In this document: positions 6,507 to 61,104 of the stretch, in pieces
How positions within the stretch are numbered: position 1 is the stretch's first letter
Layout: every line of letters starts with the position of its first letter
Source: an uncultured Caulobacterales bacterium
GTDB taxonomy: Bacteria; Pseudomonadota; Alphaproteobacteria; Caulobacterales; Maricaulaceae
DNA length: 64,000 nt
Reading direction: 5' to 3'
Assembly (NCBI GenBank): GCA_937929915.1
Contig: CALFUN010000008.1
Location: 186,001-250,000, forward strand
The notes under the pieces: model-generated
The model's database searches: none
What the model was told of the DNA's origin: nothing
What the model saw: only the letters and a program-made list of their open reading frames with translations
Made by a program: the position numbers and the translations under genes

Positions 6507-7970
6507 ATGAAAATCAGTTTCGGCAAAGACGCAGCAGCAAAATCAGGCGCGGCGCTTATCATTCTCGGCGCGAAAGATAGCTCGGCCTATCACGATATAG
6601 ACAAAGCTGGTCTGGTAGCGACTGCCAAAGCCGCAGGGTTTAGTGGCGGAAAAGGGGATAAGTTTTCAACTTATGTTGTGAATGGGAGCAAAGCTGTCAA
6701 GGTTATTGCGGCGGGGCGCGGTAAGGCCGAAATTTTTGATTATGAACTCTGCGCGGCGAGCGTGGTTAAATCCTTGCGCGGTAGCGGAGAAACCTCGTTA
6801 ACTGTGCATTTAGCCGCGACAGATGCAACGCCAGATGATGCCGCGCGTGTTGCTCTTGGCGCGCGCTTGGCAGGCTATATTTTTGATACGCATAAATCCG
6901 CGGCGACAAAGTCCAAAAAATCGCCTCTAAAAACTGTCAAAATTACTTGTGATAATCCGTCAGCGGCCAAAAAAGCCTATGAGAATTATTACGGGCCAGT
7001 TGGCGATGGCACGATTTTGGCACGGGATTTGGTCAATGATCCGCCCAATATTGTCTATCCGAAAGCCTATGCGGCGCGCATCAAAAAACTCGCAGATTTG
7101 GGATTGAAAGTCGAAGTCTTGGGTGAAAAACGCATGGAGAGTTTGGGAATGCACGCGCTTTTGGGCGTTGGCCTTGGCTCAGAACGTGAATCGCAGATGG
7201 TTATTATGCGCTGGGATGGCGGTAAAAAAGGCGCAAAGCCTGCTTGTCTTGTCGGTAAAGGGGTAACCTTTGATACGGGCGGGATTTCGCTCAAGCCGGG
7301 TAATAATATGTGGGATATGAAAGGTGATATGGGCGGATCCGCTGCGGTGGTGGGTACCATGATGGCGCTGGCCTCTCGTAAAGCTAAAGCGAATGTTATT
7401 GGTGTTGTCGGCCTTGTTGAAAACATGCCGGACGGCAAAGCGCAGTTACCAGGGGATATTGTTACCTCTATGTCGGGCCAAACGATTGAAGTGCAAAATA
7501 CTGACGCGGAAGGCCGCCTCGTGCTGGCTGATGCCCTGCATTATTCTGTCACGAGATTTAAGCCCGCCGCGATGATTAACCTGGCTACGCTCACAGGCGC
7601 GATTATTTCTGCGCTTGGCTATGAGCATGCAGGTTTGTTTTCAAATGATGATGAATTGGCCGCGCAGATTTCGGCAGCCTCTGAAACCTCGACAGAAAAG
7701 ACGTGGCGTCTGCCGCTTTCGCCCGCTTATAATAAGCTCATCGACTCGCCCAATGCAGATATGAAAAATATCGGCGGGCCAGCGGCAGGGTCAATCACGG
7801 CAGGGCAATTCTTGCAACGTTTTGTAGGTGAAAATACACCTTGGGCACATTTGGATATTGCGGGCATGGGCATGAAGAACCAACGCACAGACCCGCGCGA
7901 GCCGACCTTTGGCACAGGCTATGGCGTGCGCCTGCTCAATCGGTGGATTGCTGATAATTTTGAAGGGTAA
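6507..7970 (+). CDS. pepA: Leucyl aminopeptidase PepA (M17)
   Basis: This is a cytosolic manganese/zinc aminopeptidase that removes N-terminal residues. The C-terminal catalytic domain carries the M17 signature NTDAEGRLVLADAL and metal-binding residues in GKGVTFDTGGISLKPG and MKGDMGGSAAV. The N-terminal macro-like domain is present. The length of 487 residues is normal. A GAGGT-type ribosome site precedes the ATG. It is followed 48 bases later by holC, a widely conserved pair. Confidence 0.95.
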   Translation: MKISFGKDAAAKSGAALIILGAKDSSAYHDIDKAGLVATAKAAGFSGGKGDKFSTYVVNGSKAVKVIAAGRGKAEIFDYELCAASVVKSLRGSGETSLTVHLAATDATPDDAARVALGARLAGYIFDTHKSAATKSKKSPLKTVKITCDNPSAAKKAYENYYGPVGDGTILARDLVNDPPNIVYPKAYAARIKKLADLGLKVEVLGEKRMESLGMHALLGVGLGSERESQMVIMRWDGGKKGAKPACLVGKGVTFDTGGISLKPGNNMWDMKGDMGGSAAVVGTMMALASRKAKANVIGVVGLVENMPDGKAQLPGDIVTSMSGQTIEVQNTDAEGRLVLADALHYSVTRFKPAAMINLATLTGAIISALGYEHAGLFSNDDELAAQISAASETSTEKTWRLPLSPAYNKLIDSPNADMKNIGGPAAGSITAGQFLQRFVGENTPWAHLDIAGMGMKNQRTDPREPTFGTGYGVRLLNRWIADNFEG

Positions 7971-8018: not shown

Positions 8019-8465
8019 GTGACTGATTATTGGTTCTATCACCTTGAAGCCTCGCCTTTAAAAGGTGTGCTGCCGGGCTTGCTAGAAAAAACCTTGCAAA
8101 AAGGTTGGCGAGCTTTGGTCAAACTTCCCGAAGCGGAACTGGCGGATATGGATGCTTATTTATGGAGCTTCCAAGAGAATAGTTTTCTGCCGCATGGCCG
8201 AGATGATGAACCTCAAGCCGAGCAGCAACCTATCTTACTTAGCGCGCAAGCGCAGAGCGCGGCAGGCTTTGATGCTGTGTTTCTCATTGGCGGGACAGAT
8301 GTGCCAGATATGGGCCGTGCCGCCCGCGTAATGGTGATGATAAATGGCCGCGACAGCGCCGATGTCACCCGCGAACGCGCGCGCTGGAAACAGCTCAAAG
8401 ATACAGGCGTAAGCCTAGCCTATTACCAACAAAATACGCACGGTAAGTGGGAGAAGAAGGCGTAG
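8019..8465 (+). CDS. holC: DNA polymerase III chi subunit HolC
   Basis: Chi links the clamp loader to single-strand-binding protein. The 148-residue protein has the N-terminal FYHLEASPLKGVLPGLLEK and the middle segment ILLSAQAQSAAGFDAVFLIGGTDVPD typical of alphaproteobacterial HolC. The start is GTG; no in-frame ATG fits. The last 21 codons and about 25 bases after the stop recur as a diverged copy near 9710-9810, beyond the next gene. Confidence 0.9.
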   Translation: MTDYWFYHLEASPLKGVLPGLLEKTLQKGWRALVKLPEAELADMDAYLWSFQENSFLPHGRDDEPQAEQQPILLSAQAQSAAGFDAVFLIGGTDVPDMGRAARVMVMINGRDSADVTRERARWKQLKDTGVSLAYYQQNTHGKWEKKA

Positions 8466-49069: not shown

Positions 49070-50551
49070 ATGAAACTCAACCCACTTACAGCGATAGATT
49101 TTTATAAAGCCGATCACCGCCGCCAATATCCAGAGGGTACGGAATATGTTTATTCTAACTTTACGCCGCGCTCTGGAAAGTTAGCGCCTGTTCTTGAGAC
49201 TTATGATGAGAAAGTCGTCTTCTTTGGCCTACAAGGTTTTATGAAGCACTTCCTTGTCGAAACTTGGAATGAGGCGTTTTTCAATCAGCCTAAGGCCGAG
49301 ATTGTACAAGCCTATAAAGCTCGTATGGACGGTGCCTTAGGGGTAGACGCTGTCCCGACTGATCATATCGATGCGCTACATGATTTGGGATACTTACCTA
49401 TTCGTATTAAAGCTCTACCCGAAGGTAGCCGTGTGAATATGCGTGTGCCGATGCTAACAGTGGTGAACACAAAGCCTGAGTTCTTCTGGCTTACAAATTA
49501 CCTCGAAACTTGCCTTAGCGCAGGTCTGTGGAAGTCATGCGCGACTGCGACTATTGCTTATGAGTATAAAAAGCTCCTGCGCGATGCGGCGGTTAAAACG
49601 GGCGTCGACCTAGACGGCATTGCTATACAGGCCCATGACTTTAGCTTTCGCGGTATGAGTGGTATTCATGACGCCATACAACATGGTGCGGGACACTTAA
49701 CCAGTTTTATTGGAACCGACACTGTTGCTGCGATTGATTATCTTGAAGACTATTACAATGCGGATGGTATTATCGGCGTCTCTGTTCCTGCTACGGAACA
49801 TAGCGTGATGTGTATGGGTACCAAAGAAGACGAAGTTGAAACCTTTCGCCGCTTAATCGAGGACCTATACCCGAAAGGCATTGTCAGTATCGTCGCCGAT
49901 ACATGGGACTTTTGGCAGGTTATCACAGAGTTCACTGTTACTCTAAAGGATAAAATCCTAGCACGGAAAACAAATGAGCTTGGCCTTGCTAAGGTTGTGT
50001 TCCGGCCTGATAGCGGCGACCCCGTTAAAATTATCTGCGGGGACCCTGATGCGCCGAAAGATAGCCCAGCCTATAAAGGCGCTGTCCAGTGCCTTTGGGA
50101 CGTCTTTGGCGGCACGGAAACGGGGGCAGGCTATAAAGTCCTGCATGAACGTGTTGGCCTTATCTATGGCGATTCTATCACGTTAGAGCGAGCCAAGCGT
50201 ATTCTTGATGGCCTTGCGGCTAAGGGTTTTGCCTCTAGCAATGTCGTCCTTGGAATTGGAAGCTATACCTATCAATATATGACACGGGATAGCTTTGGCT
50301 TTGCCATGAAAGCGACTTGGGGGCAGGTGAACGGTGAGGGCCGTGATATTTTCAAGGATCCTATCACCGACAGTGGATTGAAAAAATCTGCAAAAGGTCT
50401 TCTGCGTGTTGAGAAAAAAGGCGATGATTTCGTTCTCTATGATCAACAAACACAAGAGCAAGAAAAACAAGGTGCCTTTGAAATCGTTTTCGAGGATGGG
50501 CGGCTGCTTGTCGACGAAACACTCGAAAATATTCGCGCGAGACTAGCTTAG
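49070..50551 (+). CDS. nadV: Nicotinamide phosphoribosyltransferase (NAMPT/NadV)
   Basis: The 493-residue enzyme joins nicotinamide to PRPP to make NMN. Family segments are YKADHRRQYPEGTEYVYSNF, HDFSFRGMSG, IGTDTVAAIDYL and VPATEHSVMCMG with the phosphohistidine. Close coupling to the Prs-like gene (nine bases apart) recalls prs-nadV operons and the phage NARP1 pair, in which a related enzyme uses ADP-ribose pyrophosphate. Both readings restore NAD+. Confidence 0.93.
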   Translation: MKLNPLTAIDFYKADHRRQYPEGTEYVYSNFTPRSGKLAPVLETYDEKVVFFGLQGFMKHFLVETWNEAFFNQPKAEIVQAYKARMDGALGVDAVPTDHIDALHDLGYLPIRIKALPEGSRVNMRVPMLTVVNTKPEFFWLTNYLETCLSAGLWKSCATATIAYEYKKLLRDAAVKTGVDLDGIAIQAHDFSFRGMSGIHDAIQHGAGHLTSFIGTDTVAAIDYLEDYYNADGIIGVSVPATEHSVMCMGTKEDEVETFRRLIEDLYPKGIVSIVADTWDFWQVITEFTVTLKDKILARKTNELGLAKVVFRPDSGDPVKIICGDPDAPKDSPAYKGAVQCLWDVFGGTETGAGYKVLHERVGLIYGDSITLERAKRILDGLAAKGFASSNVVLGIGSYTYQYMTRDSFGFAMKATWGQVNGEGRDIFKDPITDSGLKKSAKGLLRVEKKGDDFVLYDQQTQEQEKQGAFEIVFEDGRLLVDETLENIRARLA

Positions 50552-50554
50552 AGT

Positions 50555-51313
50555 ATGACGATGACAGAGTCAGAGTCAGAGTCAAAGTTCTTAAAGTCCT
50601 ATAACCCAAAGGATTTTGACTCCCCGCTTTGCACAGTGGATATGGCAATAATTGCTGTTGAGGCGGGGGAGTTAAAAGTTCTTCTCGTGCAGCGGAGTGA
50701 ACACCCCCATAAGGGCTGCTGGGCTTTGCCTGGGGGCTTTGCAGACCTTAAACGCGATAACTCCATAGAGGCGACCGCGCATAGAAAACTCGCGGAGAAA
50801 ACGGGTATAAAGACCCCCTATTTGGAGCAAGTTGAGAGCATTGGTAATGCTATGCGTGATCCGCGCGGATGGTCTATCACCTTGCTATATTTTGCGCTGA
50901 TTGATTTTGAAGCCCTTAGTATTAAGGAGGGAGCTGTGACGGGCTCAGAACAAACTCAATGGATGTCAATTCATGATGCCCTTAAATGCGAACTTGCCTT
51001 TGATCACGCATTATTACTTCGAAAGGCTATTAATCGCCTGCGGAATAAAACCCGCTATACGGCTTTGCCCATCAGCCTTATGCCTGAGACGTTCACACTG
51101 ACGGAATTACAAACAATGTTTGAACTTATTCTAGGTACTTCCCTGCAAAAGAAATCGTTTAGGCGCCGCTTAGAGGCATCGGGCTTGCTTATAGGTTCAG
51201 GTGATATGCGCTCTACAGCACGGCGTCCTGCTGCCCTCTTTAAACGTTCAGACAGTTTTAAGAGCGACCATGTTTTTCCGGGACTTTTAGATGTAGAGAT
51301 AGAAAGTTTATAG
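50555..51313 (+). CDS. nrtR: NrtR-family Nudix-related transcriptional regulator
   Basis: The 252-residue protein has an N-terminal Nudix-like domain whose box is degraded (GGFADLKRDNSIEATAHRKL then AEKTGI), with Lys replacing catalytic Glu residues. This agrees with NrtR, which binds ADP-ribose without hydrolysing it. The C-terminal domain is a winged helix (SLQKKSFRRRLEASGLL). Its start is three bases after the nadV stop. A GAGTCA hexamer is repeated three times after the start, encoding an ESESES run. It probably represses its own operon. Confidence 0.88.
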   Translation: MTMTESESESKFLKSYNPKDFDSPLCTVDMAIIAVEAGELKVLLVQRSEHPHKGCWALPGGFADLKRDNSIEATAHRKLAEKTGIKTPYLEQVESIGNAMRDPRGWSITLLYFALIDFEALSIKEGAVTGSEQTQWMSIHDALKCELAFDHALLLRKAINRLRNKTRYTALPISLMPETFTLTELQTMFELILGTSLQKKSFRRRLEASGLLIGSGDMRSTARRPAALFKRSDSFKSDHVFPGLLDVEIESL

Positions 51314-51317
51314 CACC

Positions 51318-51884
51318 ATGATTTTGATGCAATGTGCAGAAAATATTTGGACCATTGAAGCTGCATTAAGCGCTACTCGTTGTGATGAACTAATCAATTT
51401 TAGTGAAGAAAAAGGGTATCAAGAAGCTACCGTTAGTCTGCCTGAAGGCGCGAAAATGATAAAAGGCCTGCGTAATAATTATCGCGTTGTTTACCAAGAT
51501 AAAAATCTTGCACAGAGTCTTTACAATAGGCTTCATGCGATTTTTCCAGTCGTAGGTGATAATTCTTTACCAATGGGTTTGAATGAAACATTTCGGTTTT
51601 ACCGTTATGATAAAGAACAACGCTTTAAACGGCATATAGATGGCCGAGTTAAAGTGAATGGGCATGAAAGTCGTCTAACCTTCATGGTTTATCTAAATGC
51701 CAATTTTGAAGGCGGAGAAACAAAATTTAATGATGTGCTTATCCATCCGAAAAAAGGCATGGCCCTCTTATTTATCCATGAACTAAAACACGAAAGCCTG
51801 CCAATTATCAGAGGGCAAAAATATGTCCTAAGATCGGATGTTTTTTATCCTAGATCAAAAAAAGACTTATCATATGACACGTAA
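51318..51884 (+). CDS. 2-oxoglutarate/Fe(II) oxygenase, prolyl hydroxylase-like
   Basis: The 188-residue protein has the facial triad of the family: HxD in RFKRHIDGRV and the distal His in LFIHELKHESL, with the 2-oxoglutarate Arg in YVLRSDVF. The double-stranded beta-helix core segment is LTFMVYLNANFEGGETKF. The substrate is unknown. It sits in the NAD operon with a four-base gap after nrtR. Confidence 0.85.
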   Translation: MILMQCAENIWTIEAALSATRCDELINFSEEKGYQEATVSLPEGAKMIKGLRNNYRVVYQDKNLAQSLYNRLHAIFPVVGDNSLPMGLNETFRFYRYDKEQRFKRHIDGRVKVNGHESRLTFMVYLNANFEGGETKFNDVLIHPKKGMALLFIHELKHESLPIIRGQKYVLRSDVFYPRSKKDLSYDT

Positions 51885-52359
51885 AATTATCTATATCGAT
51901 ATGGACGGGGTGCTTTGTGATTTTGAGGGTGCTTTTGCTCGCGATCAAAAAGCTTTTCCCGAAATTCCATATCCGCAAAGCAGGCAGGGATTTTACATAG
52001 GTTTAAAACCACTCAAAGGAGCGGTCCAAGCCATGGCTGCTTTATTACGAGATGAAAATATAGACCCCTATATTTTAACCGCACCCTCTATATATAACCC
52101 CTTAAGCTATACTGAAAAGAGGGTTTGGGTGGAAGATCACTTAGGTTTTGAGTGGGTAAAAAGACTAATAATCTCTCCCGATAAATCTCTGCTAATCGGA
52201 AATGCTTTAATCGACGACCACACTGAAGGGCGCGGGCAAGAAAATTTTAAGGGTAAGCTCATTCATTTTGGAAGCCCAAAGTATCCTAATTGGACCAGTG
52301 TTATCGACGACGTTTTTCAATCAAAAAGTCAGGCAATCAATTTTGGAGGCTTAAATTAA
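51874..52359 (+). CDS. HAD-family 5'(3')-deoxyribonucleotidase-like protein
   Basis: The ATG at 51874 lies inside the end of the oxygenase gene and gives 161 residues. The HAD nucleophile motif IYIDMDGVLCDFEG and the later lysine and IDDHTEGRG segments are present. The fold is that of small nucleotidases of the NT5C type. In this context it could act on a mononucleotide of the NAD cycle, which is inference. Confidence 0.82.
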   Translation: MTRKIIYIDMDGVLCDFEGAFARDQKAFPEIPYPQSRQGFYIGLKPLKGAVQAMAALLRDENIDPYILTAPSIYNPLSYTEKRVWVEDHLGFEWVKRLIISPDKSLLIGNALIDDHTEGRGQENFKGKLIHFGSPKYPNWTSVIDDVFQSKSQAINFGGLN

Positions 52360-52360
52360 A

Positions 52361-53428
52361 ATGTCCCAAGCTGAATACTCAATAATCCTGAGTGAGAACA
52401 CTTTTGAACGCATAGGAGCATATGCTTCGTATCTTCGTGGCGGCGAGAAAAGCGGTGCCAATCTCGCTAAAGGTTTAAAAGGTAAAGACTTAGAAGCATT
52501 AGACTCGCAGACCTTATTGGCTGCTCTGTTAAATAGTAAGAAACCGCAAATATTTGCCGAGAGTGCTGTTATGGGGGATGGTACAGATTGGACCTTAGAC
52601 GAACTTGGCATCTTAGGTGATATCAGTATCGGTATGACCGTCACGATTTACGACAATGGGGCACATCAAAATCCCGCTGTTCACGAAACACCTTTCACGG
52701 GCCATTTAATTTATACCCCCGGAGCACTGCTCCGAAATGATCAAGGTTATACGCCCGCAGATTGGCAAGCCGTAACGATTGAAGGTGAATATAACGCAGA
52801 TAAGTATTATGAATTATATGAACGCCGTTTGCTGCCAGCATTTGATTATATCAATACAAAAGCCATTCGAAGGGAAAGCCCAGCATTTATAACAATTCCA
52901 GGTATAGGTTGTGGTCAGTTTGCAGGACCTTTTAGGGGGCAAATGGGACATGTTCTTCAGGCTGCCCTAGTCCGTTTTCTGGACAATCATGGAGATAAAT
53001 TCTCTGGAATTAAGGCGGTTTATTATGACCCCTATAATGAATGCATAGATGAGAACCGACTCTTAAATGGCATTAGGTTTATTGTAAGGCCATTACTTCC
53101 AAATAATGAAGGTAGAAGTCAGTTGTGTAGGCCCGCATTTCTTGCACAAGATGTTCAAGATAATTTTGATGATTGCGAACTTTATAGCTTTGTAGCTTGG
53201 GATCATGTCTCATGGCCTGGTAATGATTATTATGTTGGATCGCGAACAACAGATGACGGTGTTAAGGCTGCTGCCACAAATACAATGGAGGTCATGACGG
53301 GAATAGAGGGTCAGTACTGCGTTGACACGCATAAATATCTAGCGCCAGAACCATTTGGTAATTGGTACGCCGTTGTTAAACGAAATAACCTAGAGATTTC
53401 TATCAAAGACAATCTCTATATCGTTTGA
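52361..53428 (+). CDS. Macrodomain-like protein of the NAD operon
   Basis: The 355-residue protein starts one base after the HAD stop. It has a motif ITIPGIGCGQFAGPFRG (about residues 180-196), reminiscent of the ADP-ribose-binding loop of macrodomains, and an N-terminal GGEKSGANLAKGLKGKDLE. No signal peptide is seen. A macrodomain would fit the NAD/ADP-ribose theme of the operon. The assignment rests on one motif and should be treated as tentative; otherwise it is an unknown protein. Confidence 0.55.
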   Translation: MSQAEYSIILSENTFERIGAYASYLRGGEKSGANLAKGLKGKDLEALDSQTLLAALLNSKKPQIFAESAVMGDGTDWTLDELGILGDISIGMTVTIYDNGAHQNPAVHETPFTGHLIYTPGALLRNDQGYTPADWQAVTIEGEYNADKYYELYERRLLPAFDYINTKAIRRESPAFITIPGIGCGQFAGPFRGQMGHVLQAALVRFLDNHGDKFSGIKAVYYDPYNECIDENRLLNGIRFIVRPLLPNNEGRSQLCRPAFLAQDVQDNFDDCELYSFVAWDHVSWPGNDYYVGSRTTDDGVKAAATNTMEVMTGIEGQYCVDTHKYLAPEPFGNWYAVVKRNNLEISIKDNLYIV

Positions 53429-53433
53429 ACTTG

Positions 53434-55023
53434 TTATTTAATGTCATTCCAAATCAATTCAAACTTTGCCAAGTATTTTTTGAGACGATCAGCATCATTC
53501 TTTGATTTCCGAGCTACTCTAGAGACCGCATATAGTTTTCGGCCAGCGTCACTCAAATTATCTGACTGGCGACATATTGAAATTACGTTTGCCAAGCTTG
53601 GTCGGTCAAAAGGGTCGATGTTTGAAAGCTGGTCTTGGTCAAGAACAGTTAGCAATATTTCTTCTTGTGGATCACTCGCGCTCAATCGCCATCCTTTCTT
53701 GAGTCGTTCTATTTCCCGTTCAACACTTGAGAGCTGAATTCTAGAACCATCGGCAAACGTGCATAGCCTCGTAATTGAGGCGGCTAGGTCTCTGAAGTTA
53801 GCATTCCATTTGGCTTCTGATGACAAAGCATATTTTAGGTAGGCGTCACGTGCCTCTTTGTTGAAGGTCATTTTGCGATTGTTGCGTGAACTAAATTTGG
53901 TGAGCTCAAAGTTTAGATTTGGCTCAATGTCTTCGCGGCGGTCCTTGAGGCCGGGAAGCGTATAACTCCACATATTGATGCGTGCGAGAAGGTCTTCACG
54001 AAACTTCCCATCAGCTACGAGCTGCGTAAGGTCAGTTGTTGTACCAGCTATGAGTTGAAAGTTACTTTTGACTTCTTGGTCGCCGCCAACAGGGTAGAAG
54101 CTTTGATCTTCAAGGGCTCTTAATATCATGGCCTGCTCATCCAGACCTAAGGCTTCAATCTCATCAAGGAATATAAGCCCTTTATGTGCCATGCGGAGCA
54201 GTCCCGCTCTGTCTTTTATAGCGCCTGCGTAAGCCCCGCGTTTATGGCCAAATAATGTGGACATGGCCGTATCGCCCCGAAGGGTAGCACAGTTAATCTC
54301 AACGAACTTGCCTTCCATTTGGTGACGACGCTTTTTAAGTTCGAATATGCGTCGCGCTAAGTGAGATTTACCTGCCCCAGTAGGGCCGGAAATAAGAACT
54401 GGGTTCGTTGTTCGAATGGCGACCTGCTCGATTTCATCAATCATGGCATTGAAGGCCGCATTGCGTGTCGGAATACCGGATTTCAGGAAGGATGTATCAT
54501 TCTCTCGCTCTGTTTCAAACCGATCTGCAAGGCGGTCATACTTAGAGAGGTCAAGGTCAATGACGGATACCTTGCCGGGCCCGCCTTGGTCTTTCCTACG
54601 CGGCGGAGAGAGCTGTAATATTTTTCCGGGTAGATATCTCGCTTCATTTAGCAGGAAGAGACATATCTGGGCGACATGTGTACCTGTGGTGATATGAAGA
54701 AGGTAATCCTCATTCTCCGTGTCAAAGCGGTATAGGTCTGTGAAATCAAATAGGGCTTCATAGACTTCTTCAAGATCCCATGGGTTGTGGATTTCCATTT
54801 CATTGATAACGACAACCGTTTCTGGCGAAACGATTTCAATATCATCGGCGACCTGTTGGGCGATTGTCATGTATTTGGGATCAACGAGTAGCTCGAAACG
54901 ATGAATGATTAGATCGTCTTGTCTGCAAAGGGCAACAGTCGGTCGCCAACGTTCCCAACGGGCCGTTCCCTTGCCATTATCAAGGTTGATTCCAAGAAAT
55001 CCTATCGCAACATTTTGTTTCAT
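53434..55023 (-). CDS. rtcR: RNA-repair operon activator RtcR (CARF domain, sigma54-type)
   Basis: The 529-residue protein begins with a CARF domain (VAIGFLGINLDNGKGTARWE, LLHITTGTHVAQICLFLL) that senses tRNA-end signals in characterised RtcR. Residues 213-220 are Walker A (GPTGAGKS) and 283-290 Walker B (LIFLDEIE). The loop that contacts sigma54 is GAYAGA at 263-268 rather than GAFTGA. A C-terminal segment with Lys/Arg-rich helices follows. It is divergent from rsr and should drive the rsr-rtcB-rtcA operon. Confidence 0.92.
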   Translation of the reverse strand: MKQNVAIGFLGINLDNGKGTARWERWRPTVALCRQDDLIIHRFELLVDPKYMTIAQQVADDIEIVSPETVVVINEMEIHNPWDLEEVYEALFDFTDLYRFDTENEDYLLHITTGTHVAQICLFLLNEARYLPGKILQLSPPRRKDQGGPGKVSVIDLDLSKYDRLADRFETERENDTSFLKSGIPTRNAAFNAMIDEIEQVAIRTTNPVLISGPTGAGKSHLARRIFELKKRRHQMEGKFVEINCATLRGDTAMSTLFGHKRGAYAGAIKDRAGLLRMAHKGLIFLDEIEALGLDEQAMILRALEDQSFYPVGGDQEVKSNFQLIAGTTTDLTQLVADGKFREDLLARINMWSYTLPGLKDRREDIEPNLNFELTKFSSRNNRKMTFNKEARDAYLKYALSSEAKWNANFRDLAASITRLCTFADGSRIQLSSVEREIERLKKGWRLSASDPQEEILLTVLDQDQLSNIDPFDRPSLANVISICRQSDNLSDAGRKLYAVSRVARKSKNDADRLKKYLAKFELIWNDIK

Positions 55024-55255: not shown

Positions 55256-55285
55256 GGCTGCCCTGTTAATTGGAGCAGGGCAGCC
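55256..55285 (+). ncRNA. Perfect 10-bp hairpin in the rsr leader
   Basis: GGCTGCCCTG and CAGGGCAGCC pair perfectly around TTAATTGGAG, ending about 22 bases before the rsr start codon. There is no T-run, so it is not a simple terminator. It may shape or protect the leader. No function is known. Confidence 0.55.
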
Positions 55286-55307
55286 TGAATGAAGAATGGA
55301 GATTAAA

Positions 55308-56894
55308 ATGGCGAACAAATCTATGTTTGCATCAGTGCGAGGTAAGTTACTCCCAGCGGCGTCAGTTTTGAATGCTGCCGGCGGGAAAGCCTTTGACTTA
55401 AGCCCGCGTCAAAAACTGGCGCAGCTAGCGGTTACAGGCTGTCTTAACGGAACATTCTATGCGTCTGCGCAAGATCAGCTTTCAGAAGTCTTGGAATTGA
55501 CAAAGACATTAGAGCCTGAATTCATTGCAAAAACAGCTATCTACGCTCGTAAGAGCGGCTTTATGAAAGATATGCCAGCCTTGTTGCTCGCATGTTTGAC
55601 AGTGCCTAACGGTAAGGGCGAAATGCGCTCTGATCTCGTTGCGCCTGTTTTTCACGAAGTCATTGATAACGGAAAGATGCTCCGAAATTTCGTTCAAATC
55701 ATGCGCTCAGGCGTTGTTGGACGTAAGTCTCTCGGAACAGCGCCTAAGCGTTTGGTTCAAAACTGGCTATTAAAGGCGAGTGATCGTGATTTGATTAAAG
55801 CTTGTGTCGGTAACGATCCGTCATTGGCCGATGTTATCAAGATGGTTCATCCAAAGCCTTTGACCGCTAGCCGCGAAGCTTTGTTTGCCTACTTAATTGG
55901 ACGCGAGCACGACTTTTCGAAACTGCCGCAATCAATCAAGGACTTTGAAGCCTTTAAAGAGCGCGGCGGCAAGGTTGTTCCAGACGTTCCGTTTCAGATG
56001 CTTACAGCATTGAAGTTGAATACAGATCATTGGACTCAGATTTCTGAGCGTGGTGGATGGCATATGGTTCGTATGAACTTGAATACATTTGCCCGTCACG
56101 GTGTCTTCAAGAGCCGCAAAGCTGTTAAGGCGATTGCGAAACGTTTGAGCGATGTCGAGGCTATCCGCAGGTCTAAAGTATTCCCGTTTCAGATTATGGC
56201 GGCCTATATGGCGTCTCAAAAGTCTGATTTGCCGATTGAAATCAAGGAAGCCTTGAGAGAGGCGCTTGAGATTTCACTGGAGAATGTTCCGAGCTTCGGC
56301 GGTAATGTCGTTGTTTGTCCGGATGTTTCTGGCTCTATGAGCTGGTCAGTTTCTGGATATCGCAAAGGCGCAACATCAGCCGTTCGCTGTATTGATGTCG
56401 CTGGCTTGATGGCTTCGGTTGTCTTGCGCAATAGCGAAACAGCCAAAGTGCTGCCTTTCGAGGTTTGCGTTGCGGATGTTGCGCTCGATACGAAAGACGA
56501 TGTCTTGTCCAATGCCGCAAAGCTCTCAGCTATTGGCGGCGGCGGAACAAATTGTGCTGCGCCTTTAGTTCATTTGAACCGGCGTCGGGCGAAGGTCGAT
56601 TTGCTGATTATCGTATCAGACAATGAGAGCTGGGCCGGCGTGCAAGCAGGACGGTCCACAGCTCTAATGCGTGAATGGGAAAAGCTAAAATCGCGTAACC
56701 CACATGCACAAATGATCTGTATCGATATCGTGCCGAATACAACAACACAGGCTGTAAGTCGTACAGATATCTTAAATATTGGCGGATTTTCCGACCGTGT
56801 TTTTGATGTCATCGGACGGTTTGCAAATGGAAATACTGGTTCCGACCACTTTGTGGGCGAGATCGATAAAACAGAGATAAGGAGTATAAATTAA
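55308..56894 (+). CDS. rsr: Ro60-like TROVE protein Rsr
   Basis: The start at ATG 55308 follows GGAG and gives 528 residues; the ATG at 55296 overlaps the ribosome site itself. The N-terminal TROVE HEAT-like ring binds Y RNAs and misfolded RNA ends (FDLSPRQKLAQLAVTGCLNGTFYA). The C-terminal von Willebrand A-like domain has the metal site PDVSGSMSWSVSG. The same leader, GGAGA-TAAAATGG, recurs before rtcB. It is the first gene of the operon with the Y RNA array and rtcB-rtcA downstream. Confidence 0.93.
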   Translation: MANKSMFASVRGKLLPAASVLNAAGGKAFDLSPRQKLAQLAVTGCLNGTFYASAQDQLSEVLELTKTLEPEFIAKTAIYARKSGFMKDMPALLLACLTVPNGKGEMRSDLVAPVFHEVIDNGKMLRNFVQIMRSGVVGRKSLGTAPKRLVQNWLLKASDRDLIKACVGNDPSLADVIKMVHPKPLTASREALFAYLIGREHDFSKLPQSIKDFEAFKERGGKVVPDVPFQMLTALKLNTDHWTQISERGGWHMVRMNLNTFARHGVFKSRKAVKAIAKRLSDVEAIRRSKVFPFQIMAAYMASQKSDLPIEIKEALREALEISLENVPSFGGNVVVCPDVSGSMSWSVSGYRKGATSAVRCIDVAGLMASVVLRNSETAKVLPFEVCVADVALDTKDDVLSNAAKLSAIGGGGTNCAAPLVHLNRRRAKVDLLIIVSDNESWAGVQAGRSTALMREWEKLKSRNPHAQMICIDIVPNTTTQAVSRTDILNIGGFSDRVFDVIGRFANGNTGSDHFVGEIDKTEIRSIN

Positions 56895-56915
56895 GGCTCA
56901 AGTCTTGAAGACATT

Positions 56916-56996
56916 AAGTGGCCGCGAATGCCGAGTGCTATAAGGACTACATTTGTGATATGTATGGTCCCTCTCGATTTATTGTCGCGACCACTT
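56916..56996 (+). ncRNA. Candidate Y RNA 1 (no tRNA-like part)
   Basis: AGTGGCCGCGA (56917-56927) pairs with TCGCGACCACT (56985-56995) to close the unit, with one mismatch. The conserved AATGC follows the 5' strand and TTG precedes the 3' strand. Inside, GGACTACAT pairs with ATGTATGGTCC across a small bulge. It starts about 20 bases after the rsr stop. It lacks T- or D-arm sequences, so it is a plain Y RNA. Confidence 0.7.
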
Positions 56997-57010
56997 TCTT
57001 TCTTCATTCA

Positions 57011-57112
57011 CATGACGAATGCCGTGAAGAATACATTGGTTGAAGGCACGAGTTCCGGCTCTTGCTAAGGCAGGTTCAAACCCTGCGGCTCTTCACAAAA
57101 CTTGTTGTCATG
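57011..57112 (+). ncRNA. Candidate Y RNA 2 with a T-arm
   Basis: CATGAC (57011-57016) pairs with GTCATG (57107-57112). AATGC follows, then GTGAAGA (57024-57030), which pairs with TCTTCAC (57090-57096). A T-arm GCAGG-TTCAAAC-CCTGC lies at 57070-57086. The D-loop-like ATTGGTTGAAGGC is also seen. No acceptor hairpin follows the T-arm, so tRNA mimicry is partial. Confidence 0.7.
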
Positions 57113-57125
57113 GCTTATCAGATTT

Positions 57126-57267
57126 TATGACGAATGCCTTAGAGATTACATTGGTAGACGCAGCCATTTGAAAGAATGGTTTTGAGGAAACTCGAAGTGA
57201 AGGTTCAAACCCTTCCATCAGCAATGATGTGGCGGAATAAATATCTCTAGAACAGCTTGTCGTCATA
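57126..57267 (+). ncRNA. Candidate Y RNA 3 (tRNA mimic)
   Basis: TATGACGA (57126-57133) pairs perfectly with TCGTCATA (57260-57267). An inner stem TAGAGAT (57140-57146) with ATCTCTA (57243-57249) continues. The T-arm is GAAGG-TTCAAAC-CCTTC (57199-57215). It is followed by CATCA-GCAA-TGATG, an acceptor-like hairpin capped by a GNRA loop. The D-arm is degenerate. A variable-arm-like GAG-GAAA-CTC precedes the T-arm. Confidence 0.75.
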
Positions 57268-57283
57268 GCTTGAATATGCGTTC

Positions 57284-57399
57284 GGCGAATGCTTATGGAA
57301 CTACATTCTTAATGCTGATGTCGCGGGTTCGAGTCCCGCTCGGAGAAATCCGGTAGCTCAGTTGGTAGAGCACAGATGTTTCACAGATACCTTGTCGCC
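57284..57399 (+). ncRNA. Candidate Y RNA 4 (permuted tRNA mimic)
   Basis: GGCGA (57284-57288) pairs with TCGCC (57395-57399). Order inside: ACTACATT, T-arm GCGGG-TTCGAGT-CCCGC (57323-57339), acceptor hairpin CGGA-GAAA-TCCG (57341-57352), TA linker, D-arm GCTC...GAGC (57356-57371) with the usual GG in the loop. T before D means the tRNA shape is circularly permuted, with the acceptor stem closed by a tetraloop. Confidence 0.8.
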
Positions 57400-57413
57400 T
57401 ACTGAATTTTATC

Positions 57414-57532
57414 GGTGAATGCCGGTGGAACTACATTGCACACCGGAGGTCGCGAGGTTCGAATCCTTGCCGATTTATCGTAGCTCAGGTGGATAAGAGC
57501 ACCGGAAATTGTTTCATCATCAACTTGTCACC
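57414..57532 (+). ncRNA. Candidate Y RNA 5 (permuted tRNA mimic)
   Basis: GGTGA (57414-57418) pairs with TCACC (57528-57532), a compensated change relative to the other copies. It has an inner CCGGTG/CACCGG stem with ACTACATTG between, T-arm CGAGG-TTCGAAT-CCTTG (57453-57469), acceptor hairpin CGA-TTTA-TCG, TA linker and D-arm GCTC...GAGC (57483-57500). It has the same permuted order as unit 4. Confidence 0.8.
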
Positions 57533-57567
57533 ACTTTGTGTTTGAAGCCTTGAACTATGAACTAAAA

Positions 57568-57694
57568 AATGACGAATGCTTACGAAATTACAACGCTCCT
57601 AAGAACGAAGGTTCGATTCCTTCCGATGTTAAGCAATTAACAGAGTAGCCAAGTGGATAGGCATTAGACGTTTCGTGAAACTTTTGTCGTCATT
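57568..57694 (+). ncRNA. Candidate Y RNA 6 (permuted tRNA mimic)
   Basis: AATGACGA (57568-57575) pairs perfectly with TCGTCATT (57687-57694). The T-arm is GAAGG-TTCGATT-CCTTC (57607-57623). The acceptor arm GTTAA-GCAA-TTAAC (57628-57641) extends by a T-A pair, a tandem G-A and a C-G pair. After the TA linker comes D-arm GCC...GGC (57648-57662). A GTTTC/GAAAC hairpin sits near the 3' end. The first true tRNA starts five bases later. Confidence 0.8.
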
Positions 57695-57699
57695 ATTAT

Positions 57700-57773
57700 T
57701 GATCCCTCGTCTAATGGTAGGACGCCAGTTTTTGGGTCTGGAAATCTAGGTTCGAATCCTGGGGGATCAACCA
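57700..57773 (+). tRNA. tRNA-Gln (TTG)
   Basis: The acceptor TGATCCC/GGGATCA, a D-arm with TCTAATGGTAGGA, anticodon loop TTTTGGG and T-arm TAGG-TTCGAAT-CCTG are all present, with CCA encoded. The U1-A72 weak pair is typical of tRNA-Gln. The discriminator is A, not the more usual G. Confidence 0.9.
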
Positions 57774-57777
57774 GAAT

Positions 57778-57853
57778 GCACTGGAAGCTCAACTGGATGA
57801 GCGGCGGCCTACGAAGCCGAAGGTTGCGGGTTCGAATCCTGCGCAGTGCGCCA
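57778..57853 (+). tRNA. tRNA-Arg (ACG)
   Basis: The acceptor GCACTGG/GCAGTGC has one G-G mismatch at the last pair. The loop CTACGAA gives anticodon ACG, which becomes ICG after deamination. T-arm GCGGG-TTCGAAT-CCTGC and an encoded CCA are present. The anticodon stem has one weak outer pair. Confidence 0.9.
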
Positions 57854-57854
57854 T

Positions 57855-57931
57855 GGCCGACTAGCCGAGCTGTTAGAGGTGCCTGACTTAGAATCAGGTT
57901 GTTCTAGGTTCGAATCCTAGGTCGGTTACCA
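57855..57931 (+). tRNA. tRNA-Leu (TAG anticodon) with short variable arm
   Basis: The acceptor GGCCGAC/GTCGGTT has two G-U pairs. The anticodon stem is CCTGA/TCAGG with loop CTTAGAA, anticodon TAG reading CUA leucine codons. The variable region is only TTGTT, although leucine tRNAs normally have a long variable arm. CCA is encoded. It is therefore an atypical member and may be a specialised version. Confidence 0.8.
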
Positions 57932-57943
57932 AAAATATTGAAT

Positions 57944-58020
57944 GCTAACTTAGTTCAACTGGATAGAACGCAGGATTGTGGCTCCTGAGATATTGGGTTC
58001 AAGTCCCTTAGTTAGTGCCA
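57944..58020 (+). tRNA. tRNA-His (GTG) lacking a normal G-1
   Basis: The acceptor GCTAACT/AGTTAGT, anticodon arm CAGGA-TTGTGGC-TCCTG and T-arm TTGGG-TTCAAGT-CCCTT are intact, with CCA encoded. The base before position 1 is T and the discriminator is G, so the G-1:C73 pair needed by most histidyl-tRNA synthetases is absent. Confidence 0.85.
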
Positions 58021-58025
58021 ATCGT

Positions 58026-58102
58026 TCGCGTGGGTCCTCGCTGGTAGGGGAGCCGCACTGTTAATGCGGTCGTTTCAGGTTCGAACCCTGTCACGCGAGC
58101 CA
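58026..58102 (+). tRNA. tRNA-Asn (GTT), second copy type
   Basis: The acceptor TCGCGTG/CACGCGA is fully paired. The anticodon arm is CCGCA-CTGTTAA-TGCGG. T-arm TCAGG-TTCGAAC-CCTGT and CCA are present. Its stems differ widely from the housekeeping tRNA-Asn at 63919 while the anticodon loop is identical, so it is not a recent duplicate. Confidence 0.92.
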
Positions 58103-58111
58103 AATTTATAA

Positions 58112-58189
58112 CGGGGTGTAGCTCAGTCCGGTCAGAGTTCTCGGTTTGGAGTCGAGATGTCTCAGGTTCAAATCCTGATACCCCGACCA
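58112..58189 (+). tRNA. tRNA-Pro (TGG)
   Basis: The acceptor CGGGGTG/TACCCCG with C1-G72 and A73 fits proline identity. The anticodon arm is CTCGG-TTTGGAG-TCGAG. T-arm TCAGG-TTCAAAT-CCTGA and encoded CCA are present. Confidence 0.92.
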
Positions 58190-58210
58190 ATTAACGCCGA
58201 AAGGCAAAAC

Positions 58211-58300
58211 GTGTGAGCGAGTATGCAAGCGGCCAAAGCAGGCAGTCTGTAAAACTGCACCCTCACGGGTACGCTGGTTCAAATCCAGCCTCGCACACCA
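58211..58300 (+). tRNA. tRNA-Tyr (GTA)
   Basis: This is a class II tRNA: acceptor GTGTGAG/CTCGCAC, anticodon arm GCAGT-CTGTAAA-ACTGC, variable arm CCC-TCAC-GGG, T-arm GCTGG-TTCAAAT-CCAGC and encoded CCA. The D-arm (AGTATGCAAGCGGCCAAAGC) is less regular than usual. Confidence 0.9.
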
Positions 58301-58337
58301 AAGCAAACGCGTTATAAGAACGCAAATGGAGACTAAA

Positions 58338-59570
58338 ATGGAACATCAAACTGAATATGGTTACGATGTTATAACCCAAGAAGGTTCTGTGCCTGTCAAA
58401 ATGTGGACACGCGGCGTTCCTGTCGAAGATGGTGCGCGCAAGCAGCTTTTACGGGCCGCGCAAATGCCTTTTATCTTTAAGCATGTGGCGGTGATGCCAG
58501 ATGTCCATATCGGTATTGGCGCAACAGTAGGTTCTGTTATTCCGACGAAGAATGCGATTATCCCTGCCGCAGTTGGCGTTGATATTGGCTGCGGGATGAT
58601 GGCGTGTCGTACGACACTTACAGCGAATGATTTGCCAGATAGCCTCGGACATTTGCGTTCAGCTATTGAGCGCGCTGTGCCGCATGGCCGCTCGTCTGGT
58701 CGCCGCCGTGATAAGGGCTCTTGGCATGACGCTCCAAAGACCTCTGAGGCAGCTTGGTCTGGTTTGGTCGATCGCTTTGACGTCATCACAGGTAAGCATA
58801 GGGTCATTGCTCAATCTAATAATCTCAAACATTTGGGGACGCTCGGAACAGGTAATCACTTTATCGAAGTCTGCCTCGACCAAGAAGATTGTGTCTGGTT
58901 CATGCTTCACTCTGGCTCTCGGGGTGTTGGCAATCGTATTGGCCGTTACTTCATTGAATTGGCCAAGAAAGACATGGAGCAATGGTTCATCAATATCCCC
59001 GATAAGGATTTGGCGTACTTCCCGGAAGGAACGGATCACTTTGATGATTATGTTGAGGCCGTGGGATGGGCGCAGGACTTCGCTTTCGCGAACCGCACTG
59101 TGATGATGCAAAATGTTATTGCGGCGGCGCGCGCTGTATTGCCTGTGCCGTTTGATGCAGAAGTGGAGGCCGTTAATTGCCACCATAACTACGTCACACG
59201 TGAGAACCATTTTGGTGAAAATATCTTTGTTACGCGGAAAGGCGCCGTGCGTGCTCGCAAGGGTGATATGGGTATTATCCCGGGGTCTATGGGAACGCGG
59301 TCTTATATCGTTCGCGGTCTTGGTAACGAAGAGTCATTCTGTTCTTGCTCTCATGGGGCGGGGCGTGTGATGTCTCGGACTGAGGCGAAGAAAAGCGTAT
59401 CGATGGAAGAACATTTGGACGCGGTCAAAGATGTTGAATGCCGAAAAGATATCGGCGTTTTGGACGAAACGCCCGCGGCCTACAAGCCGATTGATGATGT
59501 TATGGACGCGCAAAAAGACCTCGTTGAGGTCGTGCATACATTACGTCAAGTCGTATGTGTTAAAGGCTAA
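58338..59570 (+). CDS. rtcB: RNA ligase RtcB
   Basis: RtcB joins 2',3'-cyclic-phosphate or 3'-phosphate ends to 5'-OH ends using GTP and manganese. The ATG at 58338 follows GGAGA and gives 410 residues. Metal and guanylylation residues are in VGVDIGCGMMACR, GTGNHFIEV, HSGSRGVGN, NCHHNYV and the nucleophile histidine in SCSHGAGRVMSR. It lies 38 bases after the tRNA-Tyr gene, so the tRNAs are probably co-transcribed with it. Confidence 0.95.
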   Translation: MEHQTEYGYDVITQEGSVPVKMWTRGVPVEDGARKQLLRAAQMPFIFKHVAVMPDVHIGIGATVGSVIPTKNAIIPAAVGVDIGCGMMACRTTLTANDLPDSLGHLRSAIERAVPHGRSSGRRRDKGSWHDAPKTSEAAWSGLVDRFDVITGKHRVIAQSNNLKHLGTLGTGNHFIEVCLDQEDCVWFMLHSGSRGVGNRIGRYFIELAKKDMEQWFINIPDKDLAYFPEGTDHFDDYVEAVGWAQDFAFANRTVMMQNVIAAARAVLPVPFDAEVEAVNCHHNYVTRENHFGENIFVTRKGAVRARKGDMGIIPGSMGTRSYIVRGLGNEESFCSCSHGAGRVMSRTEAKKSVSMEEHLDAVKDVECRKDIGVLDETPAAYKPIDDVMDAQKDLVEVVHTLRQVVCVKG

Positions 59571-59620: not shown

Positions 59621-60076
59621 ATGCTGCTAAGCTATGAATATCAGATATTAGTTTGCCTGAACTGTTCCGAGGCTGTGTCGAAACCCGTCCAAGTTTTACA
59701 TGAGCGTCAGTCCTCCATCAAATTTATAACGTCACTTGGATGGTCAATGTCAGACCATTTAAAGGCGCCTAAAGAGGGTGTGACTAGTTTTGGGTATGCA
59801 GATGGATGGCATCAAAACCATCCTAAAGCACTTTGGGCACCTTTATTGACTGGAGTTTGGATTAACCTGAAGGACATCAAAGAATCTGTTGAAACCATCG
59901 ATCTGCGGCATGCTAAGTATGATTACGGATGCTGCGGATTAGATGGATGGATAACGGGACCCAATCGGCTTTGCAGTTGTGGGGAGTTTGTAGGTACAGA
60001 GTTTAGTGACTGCGAAACGATACATGCATTTATACCAGATAATGAGAAAACAAAATGGCAGAACGTGAAATCATAA
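59621..60076 (+). CDS. Cys-rich protein of unknown function between rtcB and rtcA
   Basis: The 151-residue protein is preceded by AGGAACAGG and overlaps rtcA by 22 bases, so it belongs to the operon. It has CLNCSE near the N-terminus and a C-terminal cluster DYGCCGLDGW, GPNRLCSCGEFVGTEFSDC, a likely zinc site or recognition module. It is not archease: length is similar, but none of the archease motifs is visible. I do not know its function; a role in RNA repair is suggested by position. Confidence 0.7.
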   Translation: MLLSYEYQILVCLNCSEAVSKPVQVLHERQSSIKFITSLGWSMSDHLKAPKEGVTSFGYADGWHQNHPKALWAPLLTGVWINLKDIKESVETIDLRHAKYDYGCCGLDGWITGPNRLCSCGEFVGTEFSDCETIHAFIPDNEKTKWQNVKS

Positions 60077-61104
60077 TTGACGGCAGCGAGGGGGAAGGCG
60101 GCGGACAAGTTTTGCGAACCTCTTTGTCCCTATCGGCCATTACAGGTAAGCCTGTTCGGATTGAGAATGTACGTGGTCGACGGAAAAAGCCAGGTTTGTT
60201 CCGTCAGCATTTGACCGCCTTTAAAGCAGCGGCTGAAATATGCGATGCTCGCATGGAAGGAGCCGAACTTGGTTCTTCTGAAATTGCGTTTTATCCAGGC
60301 AAGATCAAAGGCGGTGAGTATGATTTTGCGATTGGTTCTGCCGGCGCAACAAACCTTGTTGCGCAAACGCTTTTACCAATTCTAGCGTATGCCGATAAAG
60401 CTTCCACGGTTACTATCACTGGCGGCACCCATAATCTATGGGCTCCTACATTTGACTTTTTGGATCAGGCGTTCTTACCGCAATTTCGGAAGATGGGCGG
60501 CCGTGCTTCTGTGGAATTGAATGCCTATGGGTTCTACCCCGCGGGCGGCGGGTCAATCACAATGACAGTTAAACCAACCGAGATGCCAAAACGTCTGGAA
60601 TTGATCGATGGTGGCGAACGTCTAAGCGAGCGGGCTGTCGCTATTGTGGCTAATTTAAAAAGGGATATAGCTAACCGAGAGCTTAAAGCTATACTGAATG
60701 CGTTTAATATGAAGCCTGAACAAGGCGAAATTATTCATGTTGAAGGCCCTGGGCCTGGCAATGCTGTCTCGTTATTTTTGGAATATGAAAATGTTACGGA
60801 AGTTTTTGTTGGACTTGGACAACATGGCGTGCGTGCTGAAACCGTTGGAAAAGACATAGTCAATCATGCCCAAAAATACTTATCAGCCAGAAGTGCCACG
60901 GGTGATATTAAAACGGCGGTTGGAGAGCATCTCGCAGACCAGCTTTTATTGCCAATATCATTGTTGGGTGGGGGTGTCTTTACGACAACTGATATCACGC
61001 AACATACGCATACTAACATAGATATTATTCGTCGTTTCTTAGATGTTGAGATAAGGCTAACTCAGAATGGCCGTAAATGTTGGACGGTTGAAGCTATAAA
61101 TTAG
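60055..61104 (+). CDS. rtcA: RNA 3'-terminal phosphate cyclase RtcA
   Basis: RtcA converts 3'-phosphate ends to 2',3'-cyclic phosphates, feeding RtcB. The 349-residue protein has the family segments IDGSEGEGGGQVLRTSLSLS, GSAGATNLVAQTLLPIL, GGTHNLWAPTFDFL and the C-terminal TQHTHTNIDIIRRFL with the nucleophilic histidine. It is the last gene of the rsr-rtcB-rtcA operon. Confidence 0.95.
   Translation: MAEREIIIDGSEGEGGGQVLRTSLSLSAITGKPVRIENVRGRRKKPGLFRQHLTAFKAAAEICDARMEGAELGSSEIAFYPGKIKGGEYDFAIGSAGATNLVAQTLLPILAYADKASTVTITGGTHNLWAPTFDFLDQAFLPQFRKMGGRASVELNAYGFYPAGGGSITMTVKPTEMPKRLELIDGGERLSERAVAIVANLKRDIANRELKAILNAFNMKPEQGEIIHVEGPGPGNAVSLFLEYENVTEVFVGLGQHGVRAETVGKDIVNHAQKYLSARSATGDIKTAVGEHLADQLLLPISLLGGGVFTTTDITQHTHTNIDIIRRFLDVEIRLTQNGRKCWTVEAIN

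Follow-up and report, generated by a model that had tools for sequence, protein, structure and literature searches.

The six Y RNAs that follow a bacterial Ro60 gene (rsr) in an uncultured member of the Caulobacterales are not all built to one plan. Three have the known YrlA layout, in which a circularly permuted tRNA mimic is opened at the anticodon, and another carries a mimic that is opened in the D-loop. These RNAs, U1 to U6, lie in a stretch of 64,000 nucleotides (the window), which is positions 186,001 to 250,000 of contig CALFUN010000008.1 (family Maricaulaceae; GenBank assembly GCA_937929915.1). The gene order is rtcR, then divergently from it rsr, the six Y RNAs, seven tRNAs, rtcB, an open reading frame (ORF), and rtcA. 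We think it probable that the array is a stress panel of Rsr tethers that bear different tRNA mimics, within an RNA-repair operon under RtcR. The units are as follows (scores are for the Rfam YrlA model, RF02553; related rsr loci have numbers that begin with L).

56923..56989, + strand: Y RNA unit U1, 67 nucleotides, without a tRNA-like module; from its closing stem and motif, with counterparts in L006-L009; no Rfam match
57011..57112, + strand: Y RNA unit U2, with a T arm beside the inner stem, a candidate acceptor-attached tRNA mimic; 28.9 bits
57125..57268, + strand: Y RNA unit U3, a D-loop-attached, circularly permuted class-II tRNA mimic (module at 57151-57237); 25.6 bits, circular alignment, and covariation
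57284..57399, + strand: Y RNA unit U4, with the canonical (permuted) YrlA layout and most similar to tRNA-Asn; 68.9 bits and circular alignment
57414..57532, + strand: Y RNA unit U5, canonical YrlA layout; 45.6 bits and circular alignment
57568..57694, + strand: Y RNA unit U6, canonical YrlA layout with a tetraloop-capped acceptor; 43.3 bits

An array of six units is far beyond chance. Our scan for AATG[CA]...TTG with at least five adjoining base pairs found six units on the + strand of 56880-57760 and none on the - strand, while 1,000 dinucleotide-preserving shuffles of this region gave a mean of 0.017 units and a maximum of 1. Positions 1-55000 of the window have one unit on each strand. A preliminary description of this DNA had reported six head-to-tail units at 56916-57694, closed by a stem of the form ...GA-AATGC / TTG-TC.... 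All six are there, as are all of the strands that it listed, and in every unit the 5' strand pairs with the 3' strand over 5 to 9 consecutive pairs. The gaps between units, given as roughly 13-35 bases, measure 12-35. That description took its covariation from comparing the six units with each other; we rely instead on alignments of modules from several loci. Neither the differences among the units in how a tRNA-like module is attached to the Ro-binding stem nor the divergence of the downstream tRNAs as a second set was noted there.

The identification as Y RNAs located 3' of a Ro60 gene is supported by the matches to RF02553 and by rsr directly upstream, as identified by Pfam. The expectation that a YrlA covariance model would recognize the units was borne out in part. 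Five of the six match, but none of the six reaches the gathering score of 69 (U4, the best, falls 0.1 bit short at 68.9), U1 has no match to RF02553, and the match to U3 came up in only one of two Rfam searches. When five related loci were scanned with the same model, one unit each scored over 69 bits in L006, L007, and L009, and none did in L008 or L010. We expect that the units would bind Rsr.

In U4, U5, and U6 alone, a T arm is followed by a closed acceptor stem and a D arm, in the order that a tRNA opened at the anticodon would have. U4 is closest to the genome's tRNA-Asn(GTT), with a circular alignment score of 85.5 versus 50 for the linear alignment and a maximum of 39 from 100 shuffles, and its register begins in the anticodon loop. 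For U5 against tRNAs, the circular score is 53, the linear score is 36.5, and the shuffle maximum is 34.5. Since U1, U2, and U3 lack the anticodon-opened layout, we do not file them as YrlA.

U3 begins with the latter half of a D-loop (TTGGTAGACGC), continues with an anticodon stem, a long variable arm, and a T arm, and ends with an acceptor stem closed by GCAA and then the first strand of the D-stem (GTGGCGGAA). A short loop, rather than a seven-base anticodon loop, closes its anticodon stem. The best circular alignment of U3 is to the genome's own tRNA-Leu(TAG) (62 versus a shuffle maximum of 41.5), with a register that begins in the D-loop. The unpermuted part alone reaches 54.5 in a linear alignment to this tRNA, so the evidence for permutation rests mainly on structure. 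The counterparts of U3 in L006, L007, and L008 also pick tRNA-Leu(TAG), with scores of 69.5, 60, and 66.5, where 25 shuffles reach at most 35.5, 45, and 33.5.

Covariation supports the D-loop wiring as a real layout. Across the class-II modules of the window, L006, L007, L008, and L121, 107 of 108 cells are paired and double changes, one on each side, are present in 13 of 25 pairs (shuffled mean 3.9), with many of these double changes resting on a single row, L121 or the window; the L121 row is misaligned in the variable arm, and L039 5365, which is class II by reading, was left out of this count. None of 500 shuffles reaches any of five measures, and structures that are slid along the alignment pair just 33-52% of the cells. 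Class-I modules with the D-loop layout come from other loci (L014, L040, L042, L043, L060, and L010). In these six, which remain of nine candidates after L062, L071, and L036 were dropped as misaligned at the T arm, all 116 cells are paired and 12 of 20 pairs have such double changes. Both structures were drawn on the same sequences that were counted, which favors the share of paired cells, so the matched changes are the stronger point.

How far does the D-loop layout extend? A model of the class-I module (R1), run on the window and 84 rsr loci, recovered its six training members along with new modules in L081 and L015, all with E values of 5.5e-13 or better. L036, L071, and L062 come next (E values of 4.1e-6 to 7.5e-5), interspersed with hits on tRNA junctions and on YrlA. 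Because the 233 matches at E values up to 1 include canonical YrlA and tRNA-tRNA junctions, some of them above true D-type modules, we do not count weak matches as D-type. By reading, L036, L071, L062, L039, and L121 have the D-loop layout too. By their record titles and taxonomy, the loci with this layout are from Alpha- and Betaproteobacteria, Verrucomicrobia, and Acidobacteria. The D-loop-attached units at L039 5365-5512 and L040 4425-4561 (unit 4454) keep a seven-base anticodon loop by reading, unlike U3. The low score of U3 (25.6 bits) suggests that the Rfam YrlA model misses part of the family. Among the literature matches listed, the D-loop layout is undescribed in titles and abstracts, though it may have been described earlier. 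What appears to be new is the second wiring of a tRNA mimic and its combination with a set of tRNAs.

Layout classes were taken from rules for the position of the D arm together with alignments. We rejected classes based on single-sequence minimum-energy folds: these were too noisy, since hairpins that formed by chance 5' of the T arm gave canonical units a D-type appearance.

A T arm was found by pattern in 157 of the 237 units scanned (85 sources). Just behind the TACA motif, GG is present in 41 of the 47 T-arm units that were filed without a downstream D arm versus 38 of the 110 filed with one (Fisher p 7.5e-10), where the D-arm rules misfiled at least six units without a clear downstream D arm into the group of 110 (L028 7853, L033 7827, L034 7814, L036 6864, L046 7830, and L075 2147) and a canonical-looking unit, L009 8061, into the 47. 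A stricter rule for placing the D arm gives 88 of 157. In units with no D arm downstream, then, a D-loop GG tends to be placed at the start. Judging from these sequences, the feature that is kept would be the tRNA elbow (the T-loop plus the GG of the D-loop).

In U2, the inner stem is close to the T arm, as if the mimic were attached through its acceptor stem, and U2 may be joined to the Y stem in this way. Layouts like that of U2 are also seen at L018 7575 and in L124.

The number of units is less distinctive than their layouts. The preliminary description considered a six-unit array to be unusual, which is only weakly supported: among 80 loci from a contig search with the rsr protein, scanned with a slightly longer length limit, the median is 2 units, at least five are present in 14 of the 80, and none is present in 7. 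Massilia aquatica (L023), for instance, has six units between rsr (which ends at 7545) and rtcB (which starts at 8286). So an array of six is not special. The false rate can be estimated from the two strands: across the 80 loci, 216 of the units scanned are on the strand of rsr and 16 are on the opposite one. These counts are limited by the length of the loci, include chance units (e.g., L066 3672 and L121 5951), and miss real units whose 3' strand has TCG instead of TTG (e.g., L010 7901).

The other features of the cluster are listed here.

53434..55023, - strand: rtcR, a divergent regulator with an RtcR domain (PF06956, E 1.3e-80) and a sigma-54 activator domain (PF00158, E 7.1e-48)
55256..55285, strand not assigned: inverted repeat with two 10-base arms just 5' of rsr, ending 10 bases before an ATG at 55296; from the sequence and an alignment, by eye
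55308..56894, + strand: rsr (bacterial Ro60; Pfam vWA_Ro60, E 1.8e-18, and TROVE, E 3.6e-8)
57700..58300, + strand: seven tRNA genes with encoded CCA (Gln, Arg, Leu, His, Asn, Pro, and Tyr; ARAGORN and RF00005)
58326..59570, + strand: rtcB, RNA ligase (PF01139, E 2.9e-131)
59621..60076, + strand: ORF of 151 amino acids between rtcB and rtcA
60055..61104, + strand: rtcA, RNA 3'-phosphate cyclase (PF01137, E 1.1e-77)

The Pfam search of the rsr product started at 55311, and 55296 is an alternative in-frame start. As far as gene content goes, rtcR, rtcB, and rtcA are all found beside rsr. Across 84 rsr loci, many of which are cut short, relatives of rtcR are present in 60, of rtcB in 64, and of rtcA in 49. 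(L123 has the same sequence as L055, so there are 83 distinct loci, and its units are counted twice in the gene-relative, T-arm, D-arm, and GG counts.)

Judged by their sequences, the tRNAs of the cluster are a divergent second set. Six of the seven share just 56-70% identity with their isoacceptor counterparts in the rest of the genome; for tRNA-Arg(ACG), we found no second copy elsewhere in this incomplete assembly. The operon's tRNA-Leu(TAG) has 77 nucleotides and no long variable arm, while the other copy has 85 nucleotides and a long variable arm. L006, L007, L008, and L009 have 2, 7, 5, and 12 tRNAs, either at the corresponding position or interspersed with the units, and the subsets differ. 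There are also tRNAs 3' of rsr in L037 (three) and L052 (two). Larger sets of tRNAs are found near other rsr genes. Seven acidobacterial loci (L027, L039, L040, L049, L051, L057, and L058) have 7 to 32 tRNAs on the same strand as rsr, with almost all of them upstream of it, and in some of these loci Y RNA units lie between or inside the tRNA array (L040 4425-4561). In the betaproteobacterial loci L034 (2293-3501) and L036 (1559-2549), there are 8 and 10 tRNA genes on the rsr strand beyond rtcR.

Similar clusters are known. The rsr-yrlBA-rtcBA operon of Salmonella also has rtcR divergent from rsr, followed by Y RNAs, rtcB, and rtcA (PMC7790460, PMC9879122). It has two Y RNAs rather than six, and unlike the Salmonella operon, the window has seven tRNA genes between the Y RNAs and rtcB and has no clear sigma-54 promoter. 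Control by RtcR is inferred from the gene order and from the work in Salmonella. The trn operon of Anabaena, with TrcR, also has an extra set of tRNA genes that is co-regulated with rtcB, but there the control is by a repressor, rtcB is on the chromosome, and trn is on a megaplasmid (PMC10272220). The main text of that paper mentions neither "Y RNA" nor "Ro60." As for the RNAs themselves, U4-U6 resemble YrlA (RF02553, PDB 6CU1): each has the closing stem, and its circularly permuted tRNA runs from the T arm through the acceptor to the D arm. Once a circular permutation is allowed for, the structure of YrlA (6CU1) superposes on tRNA (PMC11472068). U3 differs from YrlA in being opened in the D-loop and in keeping the anticodon stem and a long variable arm, U2 differs in being perhaps acceptor-attached, and U1 differs in having no tRNA part.

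We propose that the six Y RNAs are probably co-transcribed with rsr, the divergent tRNAs, rtcB, and rtcA, and that RtcR would switch this operon on when fragments of tRNA accumulate. Rsr would hold the Ro-binding stem of each Y RNA, leaving a putative tRNA-mimicking effector end on four or five of the six units. These ends would be wired at the anticodon in U4-U6, at the D-loop in U3, and perhaps at the acceptor in U2, with the elbow kept in each case. The mimics could then tether Rsr to tRNA-binding partners, such as PNPase or other tRNA-handling enzymes, while tRNAs are being damaged. YrlA is described as linking Rsr to PNPase (PMC8394870). The authors of PMC7790460 say that their own study did not address the role of Y RNAs in bacterial RNA repair.

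Several results argue against this explanation. U1 has no tRNA-like part, and in circular alignments the similarity of U6, U2, and U1 to tRNAs is not above that of shuffles. The acceptor attachment of U2 is a candidate: in an alignment of four sequences that hardly vary, 80 of 80 cells are paired, just one pair changed on both sides, and 144 of 500 shuffles are as good. The class-II module of L121 is closest to tRNA-Phe rather than tRNA-Leu, and its score of 38 is barely above that of shuffles (34.5). Besides the way in which the structures were drawn, there is no variation in the D stem within either of the counted alignments (CGC/GCG in one and GAGC/GCTC in the other). GG is also present in 24 of the 80 units that lack a T arm. 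Finally, the region before rsr has no conspicuous sigma-54 promoter, either in the window (the best site scores 13 of 20; the shuffle mean is 12.8 and the 95% point is 15) or in the four relatives L006-L009 (12.5-14 of 20, with the window included). In L042 and L060, a site before rsr scores 20 of 20, and rpoN was found in the genome that carries the window. The inverted repeat at 55256-55285 has matched changes in L006-L008, seen by eye in the alignment and not counted, and it is a possible operator or leader hairpin.

The main rival to the tether is that the tRNA-like ends are decoys for anticodon nucleases or other toxins that attack tRNAs, with RtcA and RtcB repairing the damage and the tRNAs of the operon replacing what is lost. 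Hughes et al. suggested a role as competitor for the tRNA-like domain of YrlA (PMC7790460). The short loop on the anticodon stem of U3 would suit a decoy, and at least two types of tRNA are copied in one array (Leu in U3 and Asn in U4). On the other hand, a pure decoy would not need to bind Rsr, and the D-type units L039 5365 and L040 4454, by reading, retain a seven-base anticodon loop. We consider this rival unlikely as the purpose of the array, but the two roles can coexist.

It seems quite improbable that U1-U3 are functionless, decaying copies of tRNAs or Y RNAs that were duplicated beside the tRNA cluster. It is true that their Rfam scores are low (28.9 for U2, 25.6 for U3, and none for U1) and that the numbers of tRNAs and Y RNAs vary between close relatives: the window has seven tRNAs and six units, whereas Hellea balneolensis, which is the nearest named relative by rsr (93% identical), has two and five. 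But the stems of U3 are kept with matched changes, as is the class-I D-loop layout, and the order of U1-U3 is conserved in L006-L008, whose rsr genes are 82-93% identical.

Permuted tRNA genes, in which the 3' half precedes the 5' half, are known from algae, including red algae, and from archaea, and we give very little credence to the idea that the permuted units are such genes, circularized by RtcB and processed to working tRNAs: the 3' half does come first in them and there is an RNA ligase gene in the same cluster, but the acceptor strands of U3 and U6 are joined by a GCAA tetraloop instead of a processable linker, with no CCA, leader, or trailer, U3 lacks a seven-base anticodon loop, and every unit is enclosed in a Y stem.

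More tentatively, and with some doubt, we suggest that bacterial Y RNAs use at least two, perhaps three, wiring points on the cloverleaf while keeping the elbow, and that arrays of them with divergent backup tRNAs would bring sensing, decoy or tether, repair, and replacement together at one locus. If mimics are joined at different points with the elbow kept, then the elbow, and not the anticodon or the acceptor end, may be what the partners recognize. Loci with arrays of Y RNAs and extra sets of tRNAs would also be a concrete model for how a cell answers damage to its tRNAs.

A few observations concern the surroundings of the array. The genome that carries the window has 2.49 Mb and is 91.7% complete. 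Only 9 of 137 genomes of its family, including this one, have a relative of rsr at an E value of 1e-40, so the locus is patchy. The 151-amino-acid ORF at 59621-60076 has no Pfam match at an E value of 0.001 and no tblastn match at 1e-10 across the 84 rsr loci. There are 337 matching phage records and 25 matching plasmid records, none covering over 80% of the query; among the matches listed, those of phages are all in the tRNA part (about 58064-58286), and those of plasmids are from Rhizobium, with 72-73% identity over 57284-57435 (U4). On the other side of the cluster, a group of NAD-related and other genes at 49070-53428 ends beside rtcR and encodes a NAMPT-like protein, an NrtR-like NUDIX regulator, a 2-oxoglutarate (2OG) oxygenase, a 5'-nucleotidase-like protein, and a large macrodomain protein of the MavL family.
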